Source: Nitrospinia bacterium (GTDB taxonomy: Bacteria > Nitrospinota > Nitrospinia > Nitrospinales > JAJDAT01). From it: DNA of 64,000 nucleotides. The stretch lies in the NCBI GenBank assembly GCA_029261715.1, contig JAJDAT010000015.1, forward strand, positions 1 to 64,000, given 5' to 3'. Positions 37,780 to 57,170 of the stretch are shown here, one piece after another (the first letter of the stretch is position 1; each line of letters opens with the position of its first letter). The notes below the pieces were generated by a model. That model was not told where the DNA came from. It searched no databases and worked only from the letters and a program-made list of their open reading frames with translations. A program made the position numbers and the translations under genes.

Positions 37780-39045
37780 CTACCCTGAAAAACCAGGGTT
37801 TTCACTGGAGGTAAGGGATGCCTGTCGATATCCTGACCATGAACGTTTACGCCACCAGATAACGACACCAGTGATGGTCACCGCCACCGTAACCAGGCCC
37901 ATAATAGAAACCAGAATACGACCCGGAATACCCAGAATTCGTCCCGAGTGTAATGGGAACTGAGCCTGAACAAAAATATCTGCCGCCGTACCCGTCCATG
38001 GCTTGCGAACACCCAGGTAACTTCCGTCTTGACCATCGTAATACAGTGTGGCATGACCTACACCACCTGCGCCGTGTCCCTCTGTAAGATGAAAAAATCG
38101 CACGCCATAAATACCGAAGTTCTGCGAATAGAACACATCCCCGACCGGCTTATTCCATTGACGTCCTTCAGCCTCTGTTGTGGCGGCTGCGATTACTGTG
38201 GCATAATTCTTCTTTGGCGTTACCGGTTCGTGCAAGGGGGTAGGAGCTCGTTGTTCGAAGGGCCCAGGAGTAACTTTGGAAATTTTTGACATTACTGGAT
38301 AAAACACCTCCCCATAAAGGTTCATGGAAAACCCGGTAAAGGCCAGCATAAACAGAAGGGGCCAGGTCCACAGGCCAAAGGCTCGATGAATGTCAAAGTT
38401 AATACGGCCCGACGTACCGCTAGCCTTGATTTTCCAAGCCGATGCCCAGCGGGCCCAAATACTCTCGCTGGCAGACTTGCCATTAGAACTCTTCCTTACA
38501 GGCAAAGTGAGATAGAACCCGACAAAACAATCCAACGTCCATATCAGAGCCACAATCCCCATCAGCCAAATACCCCAGCGGTCTGTTTCCCACAACTCTG
38601 GAATATGCAGCGTGTAATGGAACTTATAAAGAAAGGAGACGAAGGTTTCGCGAGTCACCGGCCAAGCAGCTCCCCATTCCCGGCGACCCTGCTCTTTTCC
38701 CGTCACTGGATCAATGAATACCTGGTTGTAGTTCAGCTTGTGCAAACGACCGGTTGCAGGATCCACTTTGGGTTCAACACCAAACCCCAATGTTCCTCCT
38801 GGTTCTGCCGCTAATGGCACAAAAGAAACTCGAATCCTTGGGTCGCGCCGTTCAACGATTCGGGCCAACTCCAGGGAGCCCATGGAAGGTCCCTTGCTAT
38901 CGGTATGCATTAATCGTGGGTTGAGCCAGTCATCCAGCTCGTGGTCCCAGGAAATTACCGCGCCCGTGAGGCCGGAAAAAATTAGAAACGCCGCAATTCC
39001 AAGCCCTACCCATCGATGTAGGATAATGCACAGCGAGCGAATCAT
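37780..39045 (-). CDS. PepSY-associated membrane protein, probable siderophore-iron reductase
   Basis: 421 aa with four membrane helices (about 13-35, 156-180, 232-252, 375-400) and histidines at membrane borders (IILHRWVGLG, FLYKFHYTLHIP, FDIHRAFGLW, FPLHSGRILG), the layout of PepSY_TM proteins such as FpvG/FoxB that use haem b to reduce siderophore-bound iron in the periplasm. Two periplasmic loops contain PepSY-like segments (INFDPVTGKEQG-type: FIDPVTGKEQG, YYDGQDGSYLG). It begins three bases after the TonB receptor gene, so the two are cotranscribed. Base composition is clearly higher in GC than in the flanking genes, suggesting acquisition. Confidence 0.85.
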   Translation of the reverse strand: MIRSLCIILHRWVGLGIAAFLIFSGLTGAVISWDHELDDWLNPRLMHTDSKGPSMGSLELARIVERRDPRIRVSFVPLAAEPGGTLGFGVEPKVDPATGRLHKLNYNQVFIDPVTGKEQGRREWGAAWPVTRETFVSFLYKFHYTLHIPELWETDRWGIWLMGIVALIWTLDCFVGFYLTLPVRKSSNGKSASESIWARWASAWKIKASGTSGRINFDIHRAFGLWTWPLLFMLAFTGFSMNLYGEVFYPVMSKISKVTPGPFEQRAPTPLHEPVTPKKNYATVIAAATTEAEGRQWNKPVGDVFYSQNFGIYGVRFFHLTEGHGAGGVGHATLYYDGQDGSYLGVRKPWTGTAADIFVQAQFPLHSGRILGIPGRILVSIMGLVTVAVTITGVVIWWRKRSWSGYRQASLTSSENPGFSG

Positions 39046-39048
39046 AAA

Positions 39049-41331
39049 TCACCAACGGTAAGCGATAGTGCCCCTAATAGAGCGTTTTGCTCCATATGTA
39101 CAAAAGTTTTGTCCTGCCGGAAAACAGGAAGCGACATAGGTTTCGTCGGCAAGATTATGTACATTCAACGCCAGGCGCGCCCCATTCCAATCGTAACGTA
39201 TTGCAGCATCGCCAAAAGTTACACTGGGTACTTCAAAGCTGTTTGTGTCGTCCCCAAAGGTAGAACCAATGTGCCTGACGCCACCGCCGATACCAAGCCC
39301 CCTAAGCGCTCCATCGGGAATCGTATAGTCCAACCATAGGGAGGCCATATGGTCAGGAGTTTGCGCGGGAGTAGAGCCAACCTCGCCTGTTACATTGCTT
39401 GAAGTAATCTCCATATCTAAATAGGTATAAGCCAAATTAAAAGATAAGCCAGAGTCCAAAGTTCCAACAGCTTCCAGTTCAATCCCTTTAGAATTTACTT
39501 CGCCGGTTTGTTCCTGAAATCCAACGTTTGCCAAATCCGAAGTGGTAACATTTTCCCGCGTCAAATCGAAAAATGCCAACGTAATAAAACTGTTCCATCC
39601 ATCGGGTTGGTATTTAAGGCCAAATTCATATTGATCGCCAGTTTCAGGTTTAAAGGCGCCTTGAGAGGCGTCGGTTCCGACGACTTGAAGAAAAGACTCA
39701 GAATAACTGAAATAAGGCGCCAGACCTATTTCGGTTTGGTAAACAACTCCACCTCGAAAGGTAAATTTATTATCATCCTGTTCCGTCTCTGTGCCTGCGA
39801 TGTCATTTTTCGATGTATTTTCCGCCCAATCCTGCCTTCCGCCGATCTGAAAAATTAAGCGATCAACTTTAATTTGATCCTGAAAATACAAACCAACCTG
39901 ATCCTGTGTAGTAACGGTATCGCCAAAAACGGGAGGATCGGTTACAGCTGAACCATATGTGGGATTAAAGATATCTAGATTGGGAGCCGTGCCAAATGCT
40001 TGCACCGAATCAACATGGATATGTTGATAATCAAGTCCCGCAAGAAAGGTGTGCTTAACTGAACCCGTGGCAAACTTTGCCTGGACCTGATTATCAATAG
40101 CAAAGGCCCCAAGCTTACCATCGCTTCCGAAAATACTTCGGGTAATTGTGCGTTGATCATCCAATAGAGAGGTCGTGAAAATAGTAACATCTTCTACATC
40201 CGTAGAATTCAATCGCAAGTTTTGACGTAAAGTCCAGGTTTTATCCACCCGATGCTCAAACAGATATCCCAGGCTGTACTCCCGCCGATCATACTTCTCT
40301 ACACCTTGCTCGCCAGTATAAGTTTCGGTGGGAATCTCCCCATTAATATTGTCGTTCAATGTGCCGCTAGCTGGGAGTCGCTGTGAAATACCGGACCCGT
40401 CATCCTGAAAGCTGGCGAGAAATGTCAGGGTCGTGCCTTCCCTCGGTTGCCAGGTTAACGCCGGGGCAAAAAATATTCGGTCATTGGGAACAAAATCTAC
40501 CTGGGTTCCCGCGTCGCGAATGAGCGCTGTCAATCTGTAAGAAAGTTTTTCATTTCCTTTCACCTTATCGCTGTAATCAAATTTGCCTTGATAATAATCG
40601 AAGTTACCTGGTTCAAAAATGACCTCGTGCAACGGTTCTTTAGTTGGCTTTTTAGAAACGAAATTGATTATCCCCCCGGGGTTTCCCTGCCCATAAAGCA
40701 CGGATGCTGGACCACGAGGAATTTCGATTCGTTCGGCGGAATAGGGTTCAACATTATAACCAATAGCAAAATTTGGATTTCTCAATTGAAGCCCGTCGCG
40801 AAAAAGACCAGTGGTGGTCGCGTCAAATCCTCTTAGTCTTAAATTCGTGAACCGCGTCTCAAAACCAAAGGGTTCACTCCGAACGCCAGGCGTGTACCGT
40901 AAAGCCTCATTTATATTAATAGGTTTTTGATCTCTTAATTGTTTTTGAGTAATAATAGAAATAGACTGCGGAGTTTCAATAAGGGGGATATCGCCTTTTG
41001 TTGAAGAGGAGGCGCTGTTAACAACATAACTGTTGGTGCCTTCCACAATCTTTTGCCGTTTAGCAAATACGTTCACAGGTTCCATTTTGACAGATATCCC
41101 GGTATCTTTAGAGGAGCTTTTTTCAGATTGTTTTTTCTTTGCCTCCTCTGCTTGGGCCATCAAGTAAGAAGCCCCCTCATTATCCATAACGTCTTGTTTA
41201 TTGACTGATACCGTTTTTTCGCCAATTCCCATCTTGGCTGCTTCCTTTTCCTCAGCCCAGACAAGCCCCGAACAAACTATTAGGTAGAGCGAAACTATAA
41301 GAACTGTAGTTATCTTTTTTGATAACCTCAT
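39049..41331 (-). CDS. TonB-dependent siderophore receptor
   Basis: 760 aa. Signal peptide to about residue 26 (VCSGLVWAEE). A linker of about 90 residues holds a possible TonB box (SVKMEPVNVFA). The plug domain starts near 115 (ETPQSISIITQKQLRDQ) and includes RLRGFD, RGPASVLYGQGNPGGIINFVSKKP, typical for ferric-siderophore receptors of the FhuA/FpvA type. The 22-strand barrel ends with TIAYRW, a proper C-terminal aromatic. No N-terminal STN signalling domain. A Fur-box-like site sits in its promoter. Only the reductase follows; no periplasmic binding protein or ABC transporter is present in the window. Confidence 0.93.
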   Translation of the reverse strand: MRLSKKITTVLIVSLYLIVCSGLVWAEEKEAAKMGIGEKTVSVNKQDVMDNEGASYLMAQAEEAKKKQSEKSSSKDTGISVKMEPVNVFAKRQKIVEGTNSYVVNSASSSTKGDIPLIETPQSISIITQKQLRDQKPININEALRYTPGVRSEPFGFETRFTNLRLRGFDATTTGLFRDGLQLRNPNFAIGYNVEPYSAERIEIPRGPASVLYGQGNPGGIINFVSKKPTKEPLHEVIFEPGNFDYYQGKFDYSDKVKGNEKLSYRLTALIRDAGTQVDFVPNDRIFFAPALTWQPREGTTLTFLASFQDDGSGISQRLPASGTLNDNINGEIPTETYTGEQGVEKYDRREYSLGYLFEHRVDKTWTLRQNLRLNSTDVEDVTIFTTSLLDDQRTITRSIFGSDGKLGAFAIDNQVQAKFATGSVKHTFLAGLDYQHIHVDSVQAFGTAPNLDIFNPTYGSAVTDPPVFGDTVTTQDQVGLYFQDQIKVDRLIFQIGGRQDWAENTSKNDIAGTETEQDDNKFTFRGGVVYQTEIGLAPYFSYSESFLQVVGTDASQGAFKPETGDQYEFGLKYQPDGWNSFITLAFFDLTRENVTTSDLANVGFQEQTGEVNSKGIELEAVGTLDSGLSFNLAYTYLDMEITSSNVTGEVGSTPAQTPDHMASLWLDYTIPDGALRGLGIGGGVRHIGSTFGDDTNSFEVPSVTFGDAAIRYDWNGARLALNVHNLADETYVASCFPAGQNFCTYGAKRSIRGTIAYRW

Positions 41332-41395
41332 GTATTTTCTCCTGCAACGAATAAAAATTTAATAAATACCAAGGATGAGAATAAACTTCACCGTA

Positions 41396-41424
41396 ACAAT
41401 ATTGAAAATGATAATGAAAGTCAA
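41396..41424 (-). promoter_or_regulatory. Promoter with overlapping Fur box before the TonB receptor gene
   Basis: On the minus strand TTGACT, exactly 17 bases, then TATTGT. The spacer overlaps GAAAATGATAATGAAAGTC (41404-41422, plus strand), which matches 14 of 19 positions of the Fur consensus GATAATGATAATCATTATC. Distance to the receptor start codon is about 65 bases. Fe-Fur bound here would block RNA polymerase. Confidence 0.75.
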
Positions 41425-41926
41425 TATAAAAAAATTAAACATCTCTCCAATTAAGTCTGTACCAATTAATAGGTCAAAAAGTTAAAAGTAGCTTTTCTCA
41501 AAAAAGGTGGGATTTTTAATCATTTCCCGAGGATCTACTAGGCTAAAAGAGGCAATAATATTCAAAAGAATTTACAACTAAAGTCGTTCAGATAGTAATC
41601 TCCGAATAATAATACATAGCGAATTAGTTTTACGAAGGGACATTGATTTATTAAATGCCCTGAAGACGAGATAACACAGGCTTTAGTTTTCGCAAACTTA
41701 TGCAGGGTGATACGGTCAAGAAAGTATCACTTAAATAATCCATCATTGAAAGTCAAAGTAGAGAATCGCAAGAACCATCCAAGTTGGAGGAGATTGAGGT
41801 CTCTGGACTCGACTGATTTTGCAATCCTCTACTGACAAAATTTATTTACTAATTTAAAAGACGGCCAAGAATGAAAAAAGAAATACCCTTTATACTCGAT
41901 ACTTAAACCTTCCCCTCTAACCAAAA
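41425..41926. other. Intergenic gap with an inverted repeat
   Basis: About 500 bases, no supported ORF. Contains the inverted repeat 41757-41773 / 41817-41833 (AGTAGAGAATCGCAAGA against AGTAGAGGATTGCAAAA on the opposite strand, 13 of 17 equal), with a smaller palindrome TCCAAGTTGGA inside. It lies just downstream of the FMN-binding protein gene; no T-run follows, so it is not a standard terminator. Confidence 0.45.
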
Positions 41927-42463
41927 CTACAAATGCCTTAGCACTTGATCCCACGTATGAGTAAGACGATTGATACCGTCAGTAAGGTGGCGAGAGGATA
42001 GAGTCGCTCCTGAAATATTTTTTATTTGCTCATCTAACCTTAGGATCTCAGTGTGGTCTTTACCCAAGAACTGAGCAAGCCATTTAGGATGTTTAATTTC
42101 AAACCCATAAGTTTCACGATACTGTAGAACCTCAATCCCTTTAACTTTTCCATCATTGGTTAAGGCTACAGCTACATCGATCATTTCATGTTTACCGACA
42201 ACCTGATCAATAATAAACCAACCTCCGGTTTCGGTTTTCCATGCCTTTACTTCATTAGTTCTAACCCTTGTATCGGAAGCATCCTCAATAGAATCCATTT
42301 GATCTTCTGTTAGCGTTACCCCCAAAGGACTCATAGAAGCGCTTCCCCATAACGCCTCTCTTGCTTGCTCATTGGTAAGGTATGTTTCAGCATAAAGCTC
42401 TGTTAAAGGCAATAATGTAAAACCAACAAATGTCGCAATCTTTAAAAAACTTTTTAATATCAT
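41927..42463 (-). CDS. Exported FMN-binding-domain protein
   Basis: 178 aa from the ATG at 42463, giving a clean signal peptide (MILKSFLKIATFVGFTLLPL, cleavage near LYAE); the track start 23 codons earlier would bury it inside the barrel gene. The domain is FMN_bind: VVGKHEMIDVAVALTNDGKVKGIEVLQYRET and NISGATLSSRHLTDG, where the threonine of SGAT(L)S is the residue that ApbE links to FMN. Single-domain exported proteins of this kind carry electrons on covalent FMN. Its likely modifying enzyme, ApbE, is at 44208. Confidence 0.88.
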   Translation of the reverse strand: MILKSFLKIATFVGFTLLPLTELYAETYLTNEQAREALWGSASMSPLGVTLTEDQMDSIEDASDTRVRTNEVKAWKTETGGWFIIDQVVGKHEMIDVAVALTNDGKVKGIEVLQYRETYGFEIKHPKWLAQFLGKDHTEILRLDEQIKNISGATLSSRHLTDGINRLTHTWDQVLRHL

Positions 42464-42467
42464 AATG

Positions 42468-43445
42468 TTAGAAGAGTCGATTTTGGAACTCATAGCCAAA
42501 AATGAGGCCAATATGATATCTTTCATGCTCATCCAAGTTTAGGCTACCTCTGTTATACGCAAACTCTGACCCACCACCGCTAACTTGCCACAACATACCA
42601 ACAGTAGCCCACCAAGATCTTTCGGCATAATGATAAGATGGTCCTATATATTGACCATATTGATGTCTTGAGCCCAATTTGATATTGGTTAAATCAAATT
42701 CAGATGGCTCAAGCGAAGGCTCGTCATATTGGCCTGTTTCAGTATTAAAAGGACTTAAGTGATCCTCCTGACGGCGATATTCGAATCCCACAAAATGCTT
42801 TGGCGCAACTCGATATGAAACGCCAATAGAGCCATCAAATGCAATTTCTTCTTCAAGAATACCGGGAGATTTTCTGCGTTCAAACTCAGTCTGAAAATTA
42901 ATAGCGACGGTTAACGTATCATCAAGCCAATTCTTTTGTAGCCAAATTTTTGGGATATAAGACTTTTGCTCAATGTCTCCACCGTCAAGACGATATTGCT
43001 CTAAACCTTGAAACTGGAAACCAACAGATAGCCCGATAAAATCCTTATAGGGACTGAGAATATTATATTTTGTATTATATGAATAACCTGCATATTGACT
43101 TTTATTAAACCTACCGCCTGCGGCTGTTTGTGTTTCAAACATAGGGTTAAGATCTGGATCTTCTACAGAGTAGTTATGAGCATAAAACAACGCTGTAGCC
43201 GACACAGTCCATTTATTGGTAATCCCTAACTCTATATTGGGTCTAATATCATGAAACGAATAATCTCCATGATCTTTTCCAATTCGCCATCTATCGGTAA
43301 TTTTCATTTCAACACTACCTTTTGGCCTCACGTCAGTTCCTTGAACGTATACCCATGCATTTTCACCAGCTTGGGAAACTTGATAATTAAATAAGAAAAC
43401 TGCGAAAACGCTTGCAGCAATCAAAGATTGTTTAAACTTTTTCAT
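42468..43445 (-). CDS. Outer-membrane beta-barrel (DUF6662-like)
   Basis: 325 aa from the ATG at 43445, which has GGAG upstream and gives a signal peptide (KQSLIAASVFAVFLFNYQVSQA). The mature protein alternates polar and hydrophobic residues, is rich in W and Y, and ends in FQNRLF with the terminal phenylalanine of outer-membrane barrels. It resembles the DUF6662 group, but no function is known for it. It ends four bases before the FMN-binding protein gene, so the two are cotranscribed. A role as porin or surface conduit for the redox module is only inferred. Confidence 0.8.
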   Translation of the reverse strand: MKKFKQSLIAASVFAVFLFNYQVSQAGENAWVYVQGTDVRPKGSVEMKITDRWRIGKDHGDYSFHDIRPNIELGITNKWTVSATALFYAHNYSVEDPDLNPMFETQTAAGGRFNKSQYAGYSYNTKYNILSPYKDFIGLSVGFQFQGLEQYRLDGGDIEQKSYIPKIWLQKNWLDDTLTVAINFQTEFERRKSPGILEEEIAFDGSIGVSYRVAPKHFVGFEYRRQEDHLSPFNTETGQYDEPSLEPSEFDLTNIKLGSRHQYGQYIGPSYHYAERSWWATVGMLWQVSGGGSEFAYNRGSLNLDEHERYHIGLIFGYEFQNRLF

Positions 43446-43582
43446 AATTAGTAACTCCAAATTACTCATTAGTATTTTCAACTGATTTTTTAAATATTTA
43501 TTACAAATTAAAAAATGAATACTATTGCCATTCATCGCTTCGTCTTGAACTGCCATCACCTAATCACTTATGCTTTTCCCTC

Positions 43583-43629
43583 AAAAAAAAAACGCTCATC
43601 CAGACAGCCAATGCTGTCCGAATGAGCGT
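43583..43629 (-). terminator. Intrinsic terminator, minus strand (inverted copy of 45602-45644)
   Basis: Read on the minus strand: ACGCTCATTCGGACAGC, loop ATTG, GCTGTCTGGATGAGCGT, then nine T. A long, strong hairpin. It ends transcription from the small gene at 43662-43853. Together with the adjacent 20 bases up to 43650 it forms a unit that recurs inverted at 45581-45644 with 59 of about 64 positions equal. Confidence 0.9.
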
Positions 43630-43661
43630 CAGTTCTTGCTGATAGCTCTGATTAGTTTTTA

Positions 43662-43853
43662 CTATTTACGGCGTGGGTTTACATCTCCTTTTCCATGCTC
43701 ATGTTTCTCCCATTTCCGCCAAACACCATCCGAAAAATGGAATGTGAGCGAACCATTAAACCCCTGCATAGAACCCATCATATATTCCTGTATCAACTGG
43801 CCTATGCTTCTCATTTTATCTGTATCGTTATCGACAACGTTTTTTGCTTCCAT
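43662..43853 (-). CDS. Small uncharacterised protein (63 aa)
   Basis: MEAKNVVDNDTDKMRSIGQL at the start, then FNGSLTFHFSDGVWRKWEK and a basic tail. No signal or membrane helix. It is kept because a strong terminator follows it by 32 bases on the same strand and a Fur-box-like site lies about 50 bases upstream, so a dedicated transcript is likely. No clear ribosome-binding site precedes the ATG. Unknown family. Confidence 0.5.
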   Translation of the reverse strand: MEAKNVVDNDTDKMRSIGQLIQEYMMGSMQGFNGSLTFHFSDGVWRKWEKHEHGKGDVNPRRK

Positions 43854-43899
43854 CTAGCTTTAAAACCTATGTTTTCAGATATATCGGCAAAAAAGAAAT

Positions 43900-43924
43900 G
43901 AGTTTAATTCTCATTATCATTACT
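43900..43924. promoter_or_regulatory. Fur-box-like site
   Basis: GAGTTTAATTCTCATTATC matches 13 of 19 positions of GATAATGATAATCATTATC, with the right half CATTATC exact; an overlapping register (to CATTACT) also matches partly. It lies upstream of the 63-aa minus-strand gene and 290 bases before apbE. Confidence 0.5.
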
Positions 43925-44076
43925 GAAGGTACATATTAATATGAAAAACAAAACTTATCAATAGAAAAAAAGATATTTCTGATTTTAAAAAAAAACTTAT
44001 TGATAATACTCAAAAACCTATAAGTCTTTTAAATTAAATCTCTTATAAAGTTAAAATTCATCCGCAAATCAATTAC

Positions 44077-44095
44077 GCTAATGATTCTTATTGTC
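44077..44095. promoter_or_regulatory. Fur-box-like site before apbE
   Basis: GCTAATGATTCTTATTGTC agrees with the Fur consensus at 14 of 19 positions. It lies directly upstream of the -35 element of the apbE promoter, slightly further upstream than is usual for a repressing Fur site. Confidence 0.55.
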
Positions 44096-44105
44096 AAAAT
44101 CATTT

Positions 44106-44134
44106 TTGACGCGTATACTAGCCCAATTTGATAA
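44106..44134 (+). promoter_or_regulatory. Probable promoter of apbE operon
   Basis: TTGACG, 17 bases, TGATAA. Start of transcription expected near 44141, about 67 bases before the apbE start codon. Confidence 0.55.
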
Positions 44135-44207
44135 AAATTGTCAACATATTTCTAAAAATCTCAAAATACTTAAACAGTAATTTTGATTTAAGGCAAAGCC
44201 TAGTAAC

Positions 44208-45077
44208 ATGCTGTTAGAATCACCTGCAATTAATCATATCAAGCGCTGTAAGCCTCTACTCGGTACTTATGTCGAAGTAAGCGTTTTATCAGAAAGTGAC
44301 GATAAAGCTTTACTTAGCATAACGGAGGATGTGTTTTCTGAAATACAAAGGATTGAAGACTTGATGAGTTTTCATAGTCCTGACAGTGAACTTTCATTTA
44401 TCAATAAAGAAGCATATAAGCATTCTTGTTCGATTTCTAAGGAAATGGAAGAAGTCTTAACGGTAGCGCTGAATTTAAGTGTAATAACCAATGGTGTCTA
44501 TGATATTTCCATCGCCCCTACCCTCGTTAAAAACGGCTTACTACCAGATCACTCCCTTGATATTGATGAGCAGGCAAATTGGCAAGATGTCTCAATAGCG
44601 AACGGAAACATTCGCTTTAAAAGAAAACTATTACTCGACTTAGGGGGAATCGCCAAAGGTTACGCTGTCGATAAAGCATTATGCCTGGTGGAAAACCGAG
44701 TAAAGAACATAACCATCAATGCAGGCGGCGATTTGCGTATGAAAAAATGGCAAGGCAAAACTGTTGGCATTAAAACTTCAAATACTAAAGGTTTAAAATC
44801 CATAATAAGCATGCCTATGCATCAAGCAGCCGTAGCAACTAGTAATAACTCCTATATGGACAGCAATCAAAGCTCTATCGTACACCCATTCACAAAAAAA
44901 ACCGTGAAAGATAAAAAGAGCATTTCTGTTTTTGCGTCAAGTTGCATGCTTGCCGACGCATTAACAAAAGTAGCTTTTTTGAGTGCAAACCTCAAACCAT
45001 TTATTAATTCAACTAACACTAAAGCCATATCAGTAGATGAAAATGGCAACATTCAAAACTTATGTGAAGTTTTATAA
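44208..45077 (+). CDS. apbE: FAD:protein FMN transferase (ApbE)
   Basis: 289 aa. Transfers FMN from FAD to a threonine or serine of a flavoprotein. Motifs: PLLGTYVEV at the N-terminus, LLDLGGIAKGYAVDKAL, NAGGDLRM, HPFTKK and ASSCMLADALTKVAF, the last containing the Mg-binding D-A-x-x-x site. Unlike the usual periplasmic ApbE there is no signal peptide or lipobox, and an in-frame stop a few codons upstream excludes a longer start. Either it works in the cytoplasm before export of its client, or it is exported by an unrecognised way. The obvious client is the FMN-binding protein at 41927. Confidence 0.92.
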   Translation: MLLESPAINHIKRCKPLLGTYVEVSVLSESDDKALLSITEDVFSEIQRIEDLMSFHSPDSELSFINKEAYKHSCSISKEMEEVLTVALNLSVITNGVYDISIAPTLVKNGLLPDHSLDIDEQANWQDVSIANGNIRFKRKLLLDLGGIAKGYAVDKALCLVENRVKNITINAGGDLRMKKWQGKTVGIKTSNTKGLKSIISMPMHQAAVATSNNSYMDSNQSSIVHPFTKKTVKDKKSISVFASSCMLADALTKVAFLSANLKPFINSTNTKAISVDENGNIQNLCEVL

Positions 45078-45078
45078 T

Positions 45079-45552
45079 ATGGTTCAAATCAAAATTCCTA
45101 AGCTCCATCAAATGTGGCTCTTTAGTATTTTTACTCTTGCTTGGTGTAGTGGAGTCGCCTTTTTTGTTCTTAAAACATGGTTTATTGTTGAAGGGGAATT
45201 TGGTCCTGAAAAACATCCGTTCCAATTCACTTCTCTACAAATACATGGTTTGATAGCTTTTTTAATGATGATTACTTATGGCTATTTTATAGGAACACAT
45301 GTGCAAAATACTTGGAAAATGAAATCAAAGCGCACTTCAGGCATTTTGCTTGTTGTCATACCAGCATTCATGATGATCACGGCATATTTGCTCTATTACA
45401 TTGCTAAAGATAGAACCCGCGAAATCATAGGATATGTGCATCTTGGTATAGGACTTATTTTGCCACTTATTTTAACAATACACGTACTCCAAAAAACGCA
45501 AAAGCCCAACACTGTAAATAGAAACAGTATGAACATGGAAAAGGCGATGTAA
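45079..45552 (+). CDS. Four-helix histidine-rich membrane protein, possible b-type cytochrome
   Basis: 157 aa from the ATG at 45079, one base after the apbE stop; the track start inside apbE is less likely. Four membrane helices (about 10-32, 53-73, 83-105, 116-136), with histidines near helix ends: KLHQMW, QIHGL, GTHVQ, GYVHLG, TIHVL. The spacing suits one or two haem b groups, as in DUF4405/cytochrome b561-like proteins. It would pass electrons from the quinone pool across the membrane to the FMN or PepSY proteins. An intrinsic terminator follows, and a second, decayed tail of a homologous gene lies at 45687-45746. Confidence 0.75.
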   Translation: MVQIKIPKLHQMWLFSIFTLAWCSGVAFFVLKTWFIVEGEFGPEKHPFQFTSLQIHGLIAFLMMITYGYFIGTHVQNTWKMKSKRTSGILLVVIPAFMMITAYLLYYIAKDRTREIIGYVHLGIGLILPLILTIHVLQKTQKPNTVNRNSMNMEKAM

Positions 45553-45601
45553 AACCAAGCATTAAACAGTAAAAAGAAAGCAGAGCTATCAGCACAAACT
45601 G

Positions 45602-45644
45602 ACGCTCATTCGGACAGCATAGGCTGTTTGGATGGGCGTTTTTT
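45602..45644 (+). terminator. Intrinsic terminator, plus strand (inverted copy of 43583-43629)
   Basis: ACGCTCATTCGGACAGC, ATAG loop, GCTGTTTGGATGGGCGT, then six T. The preceding 20 bases (45581-45601, CAGAGCTATCAGCACAAACT) also match the other copy. It ends the apbE transcript after the four-helix gene. Confidence 0.88.
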
Positions 45645-45686
45645 ATTTTAAGTAAAGCTTAGAAGATTGAGTAATAGAAATTTAAA

Positions 45687-45746
45687 ATAACACTCATTTT
45701 AACAACACACGTACTTCACGACCAAAAGAAGAAGCTTAAGAGATGA
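45687..45746 (+). pseudogene. Remnant 3' end of a second four-helix gene
   Basis: In frame up to a TGA at 45744-45746 this reads ITLILTTHVLHDQKKKLKR. The intact gene upstream ends with PLILTIHVLQKTQKP, so LILTxHVL and the following QK are shared, and the DNA is nearly identical over about 28 bases (CACT-ATTTTAACAA-ACACGTACT). The TGA overlaps the ATG of the PepSY gene (ATGA), as expected of the original operon junction. An in-frame stop lies just upstream at 45675, so no gene remains. Confidence 0.7.
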
Positions 45747-46312
45747 AAATTAAATGGAACAAAGTAAATCGTCAGACACATCATTGGGGATCGTTTATTT
45801 GTGCCATTCCTGTATTAATAGTCATCGTCACAGGCATATTACTCCAGTTAAAAAAAGAACTCATTTGGGTTCAACCGCCAACAATAAAGGGTAGCGCGAA
45901 AACGCCAACATTAACCTTTGACCAAGTTTTAAATATCGCAAAAACAGTAAAGGAAGCTGCCATTAATGACTGGAAAGATATCGACCGACTTGATGTTCGT
46001 CCTAAAAAAGGTGTGATAAAGATTCGCGCTAAAAATAGATGGGAAATACAAATCGACCACCAGACAGGAAAGCTTTTACAAACTGCTTATAGGCGCTCAG
46101 ATTTAATTGAATCAATACATGACGGTAGTTTCTTTCACGATAATGCAAAGCTTTGGATATTTCTTCCTTCAGCTTTTGTACTCCTAGTTCTATGGATAAC
46201 AGGAATTTATTTATTCACAACGACAACAATGCGCGAAAAAAATAAAAAGACAAACCCAAAAAAGAAAAACCTAAAACGGACTACTAATATTACAAATGAA
46301 GTTGGAGTTTAA
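45743..46312 (+). CDS. Small PepSY-associated membrane protein
   Basis: 189 aa, two membrane helices (about 16-35 and 135-155) flanking a PepSY-like periplasmic domain (TFDQVLNIAKTV, IRAKNRWEIQIDHQTGKLLQ). Histidines at the membrane edges (QTHHWGSF, ESIHDGSFFHD) may bind haem. It looks like a half-size relative of the PepSY_TM reductases such as the 421-aa protein at 37780. The C-terminal tail is very basic. It overlaps the next gene by 17 bases. Confidence 0.82.
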   Translation: MKIKWNKVNRQTHHWGSFICAIPVLIVIVTGILLQLKKELIWVQPPTIKGSAKTPTLTFDQVLNIAKTVKEAAINDWKDIDRLDVRPKKGVIKIRAKNRWEIQIDHQTGKLLQTAYRRSDLIESIHDGSFFHDNAKLWIFLPSAFVLLVLWITGIYLFTTTTMREKNKKTNPKKKNLKRTTNITNEVGV

Positions 46313-46970
46313 TTATTATATAAAAAAAATATTATTACTATTTTTAGGCATTTTTTTTGTTGGCGTTTCCACACCCTGCTATGGGTTTGAGCATAATGAA
46401 AAAATATCAATAAAACGTAACGGTCAGGAAGTAACTTTTTCTACTGAAATAGATTATCGCTATGATGGGGACAATAATTTCCGTCGTCATTATGACGTAG
46501 GCGTTAAGGTTCCTTTAAGTTTCCTGGGCGAAGGGTGGTCTGTTGGCGCTAATTTTCGCATGATATATAAAAAATCGCGCGCTGGGGACTGGAATTTAGA
46601 AAAAAGACCTCATGGAACAATTCAAAAAACATTCAAGTCACCTGAATTAGAATGGCTCCCTGAATTGAAATGGACTCTAAGAACGCGACAAGAGTATAGA
46701 ATCAGAGAAAATGGCAGCTATACCACACGTAATCGCATTCGCTATAAAATCAAATCGGAGGAAGAATATTTAAAAGTAAAACCTTTTTTCGGTCATGAGA
46801 TTTTCTATGATTTTGACTTAAAGGATTTCAGTAAAAACAGAATAACTTTAGGAATTCAATTACCTGAAGTTAAAGGAACCACACCGAGTATATATTACAG
46901 GTTCGTAACTGATTTAGACGATGAACCTGTGCATACATTATCAAGTTTGGTATTCAAGTTAGGCTTTTAA
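46296..46970 (+). CDS. Outer-membrane barrel-like protein
   Basis: 224 aa. Signal peptide (KKILLLFLGIFFVGVSTP, cleavage near CYGF). The mature part has the alternating pattern and many R, Y and K residues of short barrels such as DUF2490 (EIDYRYDGDNNFRRHYDVG, WTLRTRQEYRIREN), and closes with LVFKLGF, ending in phenylalanine. Overlaps the PepSY gene by 17 bases, so made with it. Function unknown. Confidence 0.75.
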   Translation: MKLEFNYYIKKILLLFLGIFFVGVSTPCYGFEHNEKISIKRNGQEVTFSTEIDYRYDGDNNFRRHYDVGVKVPLSFLGEGWSVGANFRMIYKKSRAGDWNLEKRPHGTIQKTFKSPELEWLPELKWTLRTRQEYRIRENGSYTTRNRIRYKIKSEEEYLKVKPFFGHEIFYDFDLKDFSKNRITLGIQLPEVKGTTPSIYYRFVTDLDDEPVHTLSSLVFKLGF

Positions 46971-47100
46971 AAGAAATGAACATATTTAAATTGTCTCGAA
47001 GGATGGACAAAAGGTTTTACCTGTTAGGCAAAAAAATATGAAGAAGAGGTTTCGTTCACAAAAGCCCTTTCACCCCAATTAAGAGAAATGGATTATAAAG

Positions 47101-47373
47101 ATGATCAAGTTATTAAATATATTATTACTTTTGCTCATTGTGTCCTGTGCGTCTACTCGAAAGTTTCCGGAGGAAAACTCCCCTGATGTTAAAGTATTTA
47201 AGACCGTATGTGGTCAGTGTCATAACCCATCACCACATCCAAAAGAGCATATCTCAAAGGATTGGGATAAAACTGTGGACGTTATGGTAATACATATGGA
47301 AAACAGAGGCATGGCATATAATCAAGACGAAATACAGACGATTCGAGATTATTTAAAACGAAATGCTAGCTAA
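47101..47373 (+). CDS. Lipoprotein monohaem cytochrome c
   Basis: 90 aa. Lipoprotein signal peptide with lipobox LLIVSCAS, then one haem motif CGQCH (near residue 37), followed by helices typical of a small class I cytochrome c. Anchored to a membrane on the periplasmic side, it could be the exit or entry carrier of the redox module upstream. A strange feature is that the codons before the ATG (from about 47040) remain open in another frame through the start region; I consider that a shadow. Confidence 0.82.
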   Translation: MIKLLNILLLLLIVSCASTRKFPEENSPDVKVFKTVCGQCHNPSPHPKEHISKDWDKTVDVMVIHMENRGMAYNQDEIQTIRDYLKRNAS

Positions 47374-52809: not shown

Positions 52810-55527
52810 TTATTCTTCATCCTCATCGTCTTCATCGTCACCACCTTCTTCATCATCGCCGTCTTCCTCATCTCCCTCTTCTTCGCCACCTTCTTCACCA
52901 AATGCTAAATCAAAGTTAATCTCGGCAGTGTTATAGGAAACAATATAGTCTGTTAGACGGTCGACTTGGCGATCGACATCTCCATCCTCAACTTGCTCTA
53001 GGTCGCCAAACTTAGAACTAATGACGTATTTATCGCCTTGTTTAGGCCAATGAGAAGGCATCTTTGTTTCTGGGATCAAATCACGCGTATTTTTAAGCCA
53101 TTTAGGAATCCACTCATGTCTCAATCTAGAACTGGCAATGGAGAAATCAATTCCTTTTTCGCCATCATCATGACAATTACCACAATCCATGTAATTGGCC
53201 ATTTTAACGCCGGTATTTATAGACTCTTGCGGCTTCGCAACATTTAGACCAGATTCATATTTAAGATCTTTATCAGAAGGAACGAGAGCCTCAAAGTAGG
53301 CAGTTAAAGCCATCGCCTCTTCTTCTGAAAAGTTAAAGGTAGGCATTTTAACCTTCAACCAAGTTCTAACTGGAGTCGGATGTTTTAAGAAAGAGAAAAT
53401 CCAAGAAGATTTAATTCTTTCGCCAACATGATAATCGCCTTTTTCTAATGGAGGCGGATACATATTTTTGGCTTTAATATACTTTTGTATGATACCACCC
53501 GCTCCTTCAATAACATGACATCCCTTACAATTATATCTATCGACAATTCTTCTACCAGTTTCTAAAGCTTTTGCTTTAGGGCTCAAATGGTGCTTATAGT
53601 TTGCTGGAATGTTCAATCCACTCCATCCCTTAAGAAGCACTAATAAAGAGTGAATCTCTTTGTCACTCAAACCAAAATTAGGCATTTTATCCAAAACGCG
53701 TTCCGTACGGAATGAGTCTGGTTTTTTTAGTTTAGTTCCCGCCCAAGACTTCCAGGTATGAGGTATATGAGTATCCCCAAACTCTAACTCCCAGGTTTGC
53801 TTACCACCAAAAGAGGAAAGCTCTGGAGCAATTTTTCCTTCTTTCTCCATGCCTTTAATTTCATGACAGGCAAAACAGCCTCTTCTTCTAACAACAGTTT
53901 CACCATGAGCAATGAACTCTTTAGATCGAATTCGATCTTCAATACCCCTAATGTGCTTAGGCTTGCCAAATTGCATTAAATAAGCGGCAATATCGGAAGC
54001 GCTCTCTATACCAACTCGCAAATTAGGCATTTTGCTTTTGGAGTTATAATGAGCTGGGTTTTCAATCCAACTGACCAACCAATCTGAGTTTACTTTATTA
54101 GCTATATTGGATAAATCTGGGGCAAATTCTTCTCCCTTACCATTAACAGAATGACACGCCTGACAACCAACTGACTCAAAAAGCTTTTTGCCATTCTCAG
54201 CATCGCCACCTTTAAACTTATGAGCGACTTTATAACCTTTTTCAGAAGAAGCCATTAAATAAGCCGTAACAGCTAAAGCGTCTTTGTTGTCAAAACCAAA
54301 ATTTGGCATTCTGGTTTTAGGAAGATACCCTTTAGGATTTTTAACCCACTTATACAACCAGGTAGCGTTTACTTTTGAGGCTAATCTCAACAACCCTGGT
54401 CCAACCTTCTGAGCGTCTTGAAACCCATCAGCGAGATGACAGCCGTGACAACCTAACTCTAAAAACAACTCTCTACCATGAGAAAGCTCTTCAGCTCCGT
54501 CTAGATGAATGACCTCTGAATGACAGTTCATACACATAGATTCCATAAATTGCTCATGGACGATTGGCTCATTAATTCCCGCAGATTGATCCATTTCATG
54601 GTGAGAACCATGAGCGTCTTCCGCTGGGGCTGTAGCCGCGCCCTGCCCTTTATGACACCAAGTACATCCCGTCTTTCCAGGAGGATGTTTACCAATTATA
54701 ATTTTTTGTTTTGGATGAGTCTTCAAAGGTTCATGATGATTTTCATAGCCTGGCTTGTCATAAGCGATATGACAAGTCATACACCGATCAACCTTATAGG
54801 TAATCTCTTTAAATTTATTGAGCCTGGCTCCAGGTATAACGGCCTGCTTGATTTCGGCCGGTTTCCAAAAAAAAGGAAAAGGCTTATAGAAATCCATAGC
54901 GCGAACTAAACCGTCTCTTTTGGTAGTGAGCGTTTGAAGTTCTTTCTCTAAGCTCATAGACTTAGCTTTTTGCTCTAAAACTCTTCCTTCAAGCTCATCA
55001 TATTTTGCCTGCAACTTTTTGATTATTGGATCAAAAGCGTCGATTTCCTTCTGAGTATTTATCCATGTAGCTTTTTGAACGGCAAAATTTTCACCTTCAT
55101 GCTGAGCCTTTTTAAAATAGTAATAGGCTTCGTCTAAACGACTACCGGCAAACTTCTTTTCCTCTATCGTTTCGTCTAAACGAATTTTTGCCTCAAGTGT
55201 TTCATCGGCTAGCTGACTAAAACTAGAAGAACTATCTAGCTTATCGCCTTCCTCTTCTAAACCTTTTTGAATTTCCTGCTCTTTAGCGGAAATTTCATCG
55301 TTTACCTTCTTCCACTCTTCTTTCGCCTTAGCAAATTCTTCTTTATAATACTGCTCTTGATATTGCTTGTAGCCACGACGCGCATATTCATCATCCCAAA
55401 ATGACCATAGGGTGACAACTAGCAAAGCGCCAGACATTAAAAAGAAAAGGAAACTATAGGAAACTTCTTCTACCGGGATGTATTCCCCGGTATCTTCTTC
55501 TGGTGTTGTTTTTTCTGGAGTATCCAA
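52810..55527 (-). CDS. Membrane-anchored octahaem cytochrome c of the bc complex
   Basis: 905 aa. One N-terminal helix (about 25-44), a long coiled coil (about 60-215), then eight CxxCH motifs: CMTCH, CTWCH, CMNCH, CHGCH, CQACH, CFACH, CKGCH, CGNCH. Several are followed by repeats of a class I cytochrome module ending in MPNFG or MPTFN, with methionine as the sixth ligand. The C-terminus is a long run of acidic residues (over 25 E/D/G), which could dock basic electron-carrier proteins. It sits 18 bases after the subunit IV gene and replaces cytochrome c1 or f in the complex. Periplasmic with a membrane anchor. Confidence 0.92.
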   Translation of the reverse strand: MDTPEKTTPEEDTGEYIPVEEVSYSFLFFLMSGALLVVTLWSFWDDEYARRGYKQYQEQYYKEEFAKAKEEWKKVNDEISAKEQEIQKGLEEEGDKLDSSSSFSQLADETLEAKIRLDETIEEKKFAGSRLDEAYYYFKKAQHEGENFAVQKATWINTQKEIDAFDPIIKKLQAKYDELEGRVLEQKAKSMSLEKELQTLTTKRDGLVRAMDFYKPFPFFWKPAEIKQAVIPGARLNKFKEITYKVDRCMTCHIAYDKPGYENHHEPLKTHPKQKIIIGKHPPGKTGCTWCHKGQGAATAPAEDAHGSHHEMDQSAGINEPIVHEQFMESMCMNCHSEVIHLDGAEELSHGRELFLELGCHGCHLADGFQDAQKVGPGLLRLASKVNATWLYKWVKNPKGYLPKTRMPNFGFDNKDALAVTAYLMASSEKGYKVAHKFKGGDAENGKKLFESVGCQACHSVNGKGEEFAPDLSNIANKVNSDWLVSWIENPAHYNSKSKMPNLRVGIESASDIAAYLMQFGKPKHIRGIEDRIRSKEFIAHGETVVRRRGCFACHEIKGMEKEGKIAPELSSFGGKQTWELEFGDTHIPHTWKSWAGTKLKKPDSFRTERVLDKMPNFGLSDKEIHSLLVLLKGWSGLNIPANYKHHLSPKAKALETGRRIVDRYNCKGCHVIEGAGGIIQKYIKAKNMYPPPLEKGDYHVGERIKSSWIFSFLKHPTPVRTWLKVKMPTFNFSEEEAMALTAYFEALVPSDKDLKYESGLNVAKPQESINTGVKMANYMDCGNCHDDGEKGIDFSIASSRLRHEWIPKWLKNTRDLIPETKMPSHWPKQGDKYVISSKFGDLEQVEDGDVDRQVDRLTDYIVSYNTAEINFDLAFGEEGGEEEGDEEDGDDEEGGDDEDDEDEE

Positions 55528-56339: not shown

Positions 56340-57170
56340 TTAAAGCGGACCGGAAATTCCACCATCTTTTCGTATACGCCAGAAGTGGACTATCATCAAC
56401 GCTCCGGCAACCAAAGGAATAAAGATACAGTGTAAAACGTAAAAGCGTAGTAACGCTGGAGGTCCAACAATACTTCCTCCAATCAGCACGGATCTGGCGT
56501 CATAACGTTGCGAAACCCCTACAAACTCAGCAAAAGGCCCTTCATGCCCTAAAAACGGAGTCGCCCTAGCCATATTTGTTCCAACGGTAACAGCCCACAT
56601 AGCTAATTGATCCCATGGCAACAAATAACCTGTAAAGCTCAGCAGCAAGGTAAACGTTACTAAGAATACCCCAATAACCCAATTGAATTCCCGTGGAGGC
56701 TTATAAGAGCCGCTCAGGAAAACTCGGAACATGTGTAGCCAAACTGTAATAACCATAGAATGCGCCGCCCATCGATGCATATTCCTCATCAACATACCAA
56801 ATGGAACGTCGTATTGGAGGTACTTCATATCAAAATATGCGTATTCGCCTACCGGGCGATAATAAAACATCAATATGATGCCGGTGACAACTGTGGACAG
56901 AAACAAAAGAAATGTAATACCACCCATGCACCAAGTAAACCGAATTCTTAAGGCATGGCGGGAAATTTTAACGGGATGTAAGTGCAACCAAACGTTGCTG
57001 GCAATTTGAAGTACCCGGTTTCGAGGTGTATCTGCGTAACCATGCCTAAAAGACGACGTCCAAATTTGGGAATCGGTAACGGCCTTGGCTAATTCTTTCC
57101 AAATTTCCCCACTTTTGATCTTATCGATCAAATCGGTAATACCGGGAATGCCTTGAGTCTTGTTTGCCAA
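56340..57170 (-). CDS. Cytochrome b6-type subunit
   Basis: 276 aa, four core helices. Haem ligands are H-x13-H ([15 protein letters not shown]) and H-x14-H ([16 protein letters not shown]), the latter spacing being b6f-like. [10 protein letters not shown] places a cysteine where b6 attaches the additional haem c-i. The C-terminus is ISGPL, as in b6. An N-terminal stretch of about 60 residues ([14 protein letters not shown]) precedes the core. Between helices C and D it has an insertion ([21 protein letters not shown]). Confidence 0.94.

Follow-up and report, generated by a model that had tools for sequence, protein, structure and literature searches.

A conserved DUF6662-FMN_bind-ApbE-TM4 gene cluster, found in a Nitrospinia locus, as a candidate Fur-linked module for extracytoplasmic iron reduction

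The contig JAJDAT010000015.1 of a Nitrospinia bacterium (assembly GCA_029261715.1) carries, at positions 41,927 to 47,373 of the 64,000-nucleotide stretch analysed here (the window), a compact locus in which two minus-strand genes, encoding a DUF6662 protein and an exported flavin mononucleotide (FMN)-binding protein of the FMN_bind family, diverge from five plus-strand genes encoding the flavin transferase ApbE, a small membrane protein that we call TM4, a half-size PepSY_TM protein, a DUF2490 protein and a lipoprotein cytochrome c (Table 1). An earlier note on this DNA had joined these seven genes into one path leading from quinol through haem b and covalent FMN to the periplasm or the cell surface. 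The list of open reading frames (ORFs) and family profile searches located all seven, and the siderophore receptor and large PepSY gene beside them are likewise as that note described. A neighbourhood survey revealed that genes of this set do co-occur in other bacteria; the seven-part path, on the other hand, was not upheld, the conserved unit being the near-invariant same-strand cluster DUF6662-FMN_bind-ApbE-TM4, smaller and wider in distribution than first proposed.

An FMN_bind alignment search of the GTDB species genomes retrieved 366 relatives, the best 80 loci of which were fetched and, together with three plasmid records, used to count gene orders. In 67 of these 83 loci the four genes follow each other as DUF6662, FMN_bind, ApbE and TM4 on one strand with nothing between them, and FMN_bind, ApbE and TM4 are contiguous in at least 77, several of the exceptions being contig ends or frameshifted ORFs. 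Carriers of the module include Alpha-, Beta- and Gammaproteobacteria, Verrucomicrobia, Acidobacteria, Chlamydiae, Omnitrophota, Bdellovibrionota and Nitrospinota. Since the 80-locus sample had been picked by FMN_bind, an independent search was made with the TM4 profile alone in 368 other genomes of one proteobacterial class, which returned TM4 in eight genomes (about 2%) at nine places; FMN_bind and ApbE adjoin it at seven of these, a divergent FMN_bind gene at one and neither at the last. The distribution of the module is therefore patchy. In locus L117 a TM4 homologue stands without FMN_bind or ApbE inside 1.4 kb. In several Verrucomicrobia (L064, L070, L072, L073, L076 and L081) the module lies just upstream of genes that read as rpsB-tsf-like in sequence, which suggests vertical inheritance within those Verrucomicrobia. 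Transfer between phyla is likely.

Table 1. Features of the locus and its immediate neighbours, numbered along the window
Feature	Position	Strand	Evidence and remarks
Full-length PepSY_TM protein, FoxB/PiuB type (neighbour)	37780..39045	-	PF03929 full-length, E 7e-58
TonB-dependent siderophore receptor, FhuA/FoxA-like (neighbour)	39049..41331	-	NCBIfam FhuA 608 bits, under equivalog cut-off
FMN_bind protein, exported, 178 aa	41927..42463	-	PF04205, E 8.5e-13; hydrophobic leader; ORF to 42532
DUF6662 outer-membrane beta-barrel (predicted)	42468..43445	-	PF20367, E 2e-17; ORF to 43559
63-aa ORF, doubtful gene, between divergent promoter and DUF6662	43662..43853	-	No homologue in 60 relatives or in the 80 loci
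Divergent intergenic region, 354 bp	43854..44207		Fur-like boxes 43900-43918 and 44077-44095
ApbE FAD:protein FMN transferase, without signal peptide	44208..45077	+	PF02424, E 4e-39
TM4, predicted dihaem b-type four-helix membrane cytochrome	45079..45552	+	Model and invariant His; unfamilied
Half-size PepSY_TM protein, clade-specific addition	45743..46312	+	PF03929, E 5e-12
DUF2490 predicted outer-membrane protein, clade-specific addition	46296..46970	+	PF10677, E 1.6e-12
Lipoprotein cytochrome c, one CxxCH	47101..47373	+	Weak Pfam match only, E 0.06

Comparison with relatives revised the likely starts of FMN_bind (42463, not 42532), DUF6662 (43445) and TM4, the last being the ATG at 45079, immediately past the ApbE stop. 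The 63-aa ORF was rejected as a partner gene, as a homologue was found in 0 of 60 relatives and in none of the 80 module loci. A 147-bp inverted repeat (43562-43708 and 45520-45668; about 84% identity over its main part), which contains terminator-like hairpins, encloses the divergent promoter together with ApbE and most of TM4 and reaches into the final TM4 codons; because the usual one-strand gene order is broken in the window, this repeat may mark a rearrangement.

The FMN_bind protein of the window has a predicted flavinylation site at Thr154, within S151-G-A-T, and an SGAT, SGGT or TGAT motif occurs in 84 of 85 FMN_bind homologues, a motif of the kind found in proven ApbE substrates (PMC8238504). 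With its PF02424 match and a substrate bearing [S/T]GA[S/T], the ApbE of the cluster combines both features that define an ApbE flavin transferase. The leader of FMN_bind is hydrophobic and of Sec type, a twin-arginine motif being seen in only 1 of 71 sequences. The earlier note had itself raised the possibility that the FMN protein belongs to another complex such as Rnf or Nqr. This was rejected, since scoring as RnfG or NqrC gives 33 bits against a cut-off of 102 and 19 against 144; moreover, FMN_bind occurs as one copy in the genome, which is 97% complete, so that to the extent allowed by this completeness an Rnf or Nqr origin is excluded. The signal peptide of ApbE was judged from motif position and hydropathy, with no dedicated predictor, and by these measures neither a signal peptide nor a lipobox is present in the window protein or in most homologues: the LGT motif begins 17 residues from the start in the window and fewer than 30 in most homologues, and N-terminal hydropathy is low. 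A published flavinylation survey, according to its selection rules, retained a gene only if a signal peptide or lipobox was predicted for it (PMC8238504). Leaderless ApbEs would drop out of such a survey, which may explain why the module did not stand out.

TM4 matches no Pfam or NCBIfam family and has no significant sequence match in the PDB, including any solved cytochrome b. Nevertheless, 54 homologues share H56, H74, H121 and H135 without exception, together with G25, G68, G88 and the L105-Y106-Y107 stretch. Four long helices make up its structural model (mean predicted local distance difference test score, pLDDT, 92.1); helix 2 bears H56 and H74, and helix 4 bears H121 and H135. The best structural matches include the hydrogenase cytochrome b HyaC (Z 11.8), 4D2, which is a designed dihaem protein (Z 11.7), and cytochrome b6 (Z 10.7), ion-channel domains being also listed. 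Helical-bundle scores below a Z of about 13 can reflect a common arrangement, and for this reason the ligand pattern weighs more than the fold. The four histidines are predicted haem ligands that would form two potential bis-His sites within the bundle; modelled in this way, TM4 looks like a dihaem b-type cytochrome, its haem content being deduced from this pattern, in line with the haem b step that the earlier note had proposed for the path. FoxB is not among the fold matches listed, from which no exclusion follows, and five TM4 proteins gave no PF03929 match. Assignment of TM4 to DUF4405 by Pfam was rejected (PF14358, best E 0.0067, 17.4 bits against a gathering score of 26.7), and the hhalign comparison of both families is weak (probability 46, E 2e-4, 51 columns, helices 3-4).

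An outer-membrane barrel, either DUF6662 or an OprP-like porin, is found in nearly every cluster, a larger porin-like gene being usually close by in the loci without DUF6662 (L035, L036, L077 and L101). Tandem DUF6662 copies precede FMN_bind in six loci (L050, L071, L087, L095, L109 and L110). The constancy of the barrel would fit a porin-flavoprotein conduit through which electrons cross the outer membrane and reach iron or minerals outside the cell. However, the DUF6662 model (pLDDT 89.9) shows 12 long strands and resembles FapF (Z 22.7) and the small COG4313 channel (Z 22.0). A barrel of this size would lack the room for a folded flavoprotein, and the conserved set would offer one predicted flavin and no multihaem carrier. 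We read DUF6662, on the basis of this model, as a channel for small molecules; judging from its strand count, it is unlikely to enclose the folded 18-kDa flavoprotein and appears too narrow for an obvious MtrB-like conduit. The transfer to the cell surface envisaged earlier thus finds no support, and we regard a conduit of this kind as quite improbable.

The remaining genes of the window run differ from the conserved four in their distribution. A half PepSY gene was found in 7 of 86 scanned loci, against 84 of 86 for TM4; it lies directly after TM4 in L038, L039, L040, L041 and L042, precedes the module by about 2 kb in L043, and is followed by DUF2490 in L038, L040 and L041. Nitrospinaceae metagenome-assembled genomes are the nearest relatives of the window genome and mark it as a member of the Nitrospinota. 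A FastTree phylogeny built on FMN_bind, ApbE and TM4 joined together places the window beside two Nitrospinaceae (support 0.995) and, next, with the extension-bearing, mostly marine Alpha- and Gammaproteobacteria (0.997); the window retains the PepSY/DUF2490 extension, which the loci of the two Nitrospinaceae lack. From the distribution over loci and this grouping, the extension is a trait of one mostly marine clade, and the half PepSY and DUF2490 proteins, which the earlier note had counted among the parts of the path, stand outside the conserved unit. These data also bear on the alternative that the locus belongs to the known PepSY-like flavinylation systems, with TM4 and the barrel in an accessory role. 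The published account of such clusters lists ApbE, DUF2271 and DUF4198 (Meheust et al. 2021, PMC8238504), and the window does fall under the published rule (a PF03929 or PF16357 gene in a flavinylation cluster), solely by virtue of its half PepSY gene. However, about nine in ten module loci have no PepSY while TM4 is nearly always present, so that PepSY does not qualify as the conserved membrane electron carrier, and no DUF2271 match, a substrate frequent if not universal in PepSY-like systems, was obtained among the window cluster proteins. We therefore give this alternative very little probability.

The lipoprotein cytochrome c, also placed in the electron path by the earlier note, turned out to be a common Nitrospinota protein: 40 of 61 genomes of the lineage encode relatives, and the module is lacking from most of these 40. 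Its presence in the same gene run, as well as a gene with three cytochrome c domains after the module in L024, could point to a branch of the respiratory chain in which the flavoprotein feeds the cytochrome. Against this, the cytochrome family is common where the module is lacking and is missing from the other module loci save for a remnant in one Nitrospinaceae metagenome-assembled genome (L025, 8975-9219), where some 2.5 kb separate the module from a homologue that is split, apparently by a frameshift or an interruption. This broken copy is the only hint linking the cytochrome to the module. We rejected the cytochrome as a core part, since it is common in genomes of the order without the cluster; its position beside the module is probably incidental, and a respiratory branch seems to us extremely unlikely. 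Elsewhere in the window, a large multi-CxxCH cytochrome c gene (52810-55527) lies near a region matching the DUF4405 model (56730-56918), possibly a cytochrome b, and together they look like a respiratory complex.

On the other hand, several observations relate the conserved cluster to iron. The Fur-like sites noticed earlier at the locus were confirmed: the two boxes in the divergent region match the 19-bp consensus at 14/19 and 15/19 positions in the order of Table 1, the best window score having a P of 0.01 against first-order Markov shuffles, and further Fur-like sites lie at 41404-41428, upstream of the TonB receptor. A Fur box matching at least 13 of the 19 positions was found in 12 of 74 module promoters and in 20 of 612 other gene starts of the same loci (odds ratio 5.7, Fisher P 4e-5), in a scan that misses other iron regulators because the consensus is of E. 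coli type. Iron genes also recur as neighbours: Fur-family genes are adjacent in four loci (L085, L102, L107 and L114), FTR1 begins at the TM4 stop on the same strand in L056, L112 carries a same-strand FeoB gene downstream, and TonB receptors stand directly downstream in L042 and L044. Iron regulation and iron transport thus recur with the cluster beyond the window, which supports the link to iron made in the earlier note. In the window genome, searches returned Fur-family genes and FTR1 but no FeoB. The TonB receptor followed by the full-length PepSY_TM gene (37780-41428), with Fur-like sites upstream, reproduces the known FoxA-FoxB type of arrangement.

Sequence and models directly show the conserved gene set, the flavinylation motif, four invariant histidines, the folds, the Fur-box enrichment and the iron-transport neighbours; the haem content, electron donor, direction, substrate and barrel function of the module are inferred. 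We consider it probable that it is a Fur-controlled extracytoplasmic electron-transfer module reducing ferric iron or ferric siderophores. TM4, with its two predicted bis-histidine b haems, would draw on an inner-membrane electron donor, probably quinol, and hand the electrons across the membrane to the exported FMN_bind protein, to whose SGAT threonine ApbE would have attached the flavin. The flavoprotein would then reduce Fe(III) in the periplasm, and the resulting Fe(II) would enter through FTR1 or FeoB. The 12-strand barrel, or the OprP-like porin of some genomes, would probably pass the substrate or the spent ligand, and in the marine clade the added half PepSY_TM and DUF2490 proteins could perhaps dock the ferric chelate. 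This order of carriers is suggested by position and precedent: FoxB and FpvG are the example for reduction of ferrisiderophores by way of haem in the periplasm (PMC10866019, PMC13038864), and the published survey had already connected flavinylation clusters with iron assimilation (PMC8238504).

Several facts weigh against this reading. Most loci have no iron gene adjoining the module; 62 of the 74 module promoters fall below 13/19 and have no recognisable E. coli-type Fur box; ApbE is leaderless although its substrate leaves by a Sec-type leader; and in L039 and L042 DUF6662, FMN_bind, TM4 and PepSY are present with no adjacent ApbE, which must be supplied from elsewhere or be missing. Moreover, the substrate could be another metal. 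The same electron path might indeed serve a different extracytoplasmic acceptor, such as copper, a peroxide or an oxidised protein, the link to iron being then secondary. The scarcity of iron neighbours is consistent with this alternative, as are a cytochrome c peroxidase gene two genes upstream of the module in Ideonella and the proposal that CrpH, a PepSY_TM relative, reduces copper (PMC13038864). The Fur-box enrichment and the Fur-family, FTR1, FeoB and TonB neighbours argue against it, and no recurrent copper gene family appears among the flanking families listed; we hold another acceptor to be unlikely, though worth keeping in mind, and retain iron reduction as the preferred function.

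Flavinylation-based extracytoplasmic electron transfer is already known as a kind. With its TM4 family, DUF6662 partner and leaderless ApbE, the module is apparently an undescribed variant, and literature searches, whose coverage left out most subscription journals, found no description of it. We give somewhat less than an even chance to the wider reading that DUF6662-FMN_bind-ApbE-TM4 represents an additional class of such systems, spread over many diderm phyla, with an unfamilied four-helix dihaem cytochrome b and an ApbE acting in the cytoplasm before Sec export of its substrate, and that it serves generally as a periplasmic iron reductase. Periplasmic reduction of ferric siderophores is known from the FoxB-type proteins of some Gram-negative bacteria, to which a compact, widespread module with a predicted flavin site and four candidate haem ligands would add a second route. 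The cluster also suggests a setting in which DUF6662 and the unfamilied TM4 may work, and its leaderless ApbE raises the question of where flavin attachment happens.

Among known systems, the PepSY-like clusters, as outlined in the published survey (PMC8238504), share with the module the plan of an ApbE-modified exported protein next to a haem membrane protein, as well as ties to iron transporters, to TonB receptors and to Fur; compared with that outline, the module has an FMN_bind substrate instead of DUF2271, the unfamilied TM4 as its conserved membrane protein, a conserved DUF6662 barrel and a leaderless ApbE. The DUF4405/FezC cytochromes of flavinylation and ferrosome systems (PMC10979944) are also small, His-rich b-type membrane proteins encoded beside apbE, whereas TM4 has four helices in a single chain, not six or a homodimer, and other partners. 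RnfG and NqrC have in common with the module protein the FMN_bind domain and a flavinylated threonine, which in the module protein is a predicted one, and are its best sequence relatives of solved structure (E 4e-7), yet it scores far under their subunit cut-offs and no second FMN_bind protein is encoded in the genome. The HyaC-type and b6-type dihaem cytochromes b share the four-helix bundle with TM4, in which helices 2 and 4 carry the four invariant His, and differ from it in their partners and in the lack of a sequence match between TM4 and any solved cytochrome b. Finally, FoxB, FpvG and PiuB (PMC10866019, PMC13038864) are likewise proposed to mediate periplasmic ferric-siderophore reduction through haem, with two His near each membrane face; TM4, in contrast, has no PepSY domain, and the periplasmic part of the module is a separate flavoprotein.

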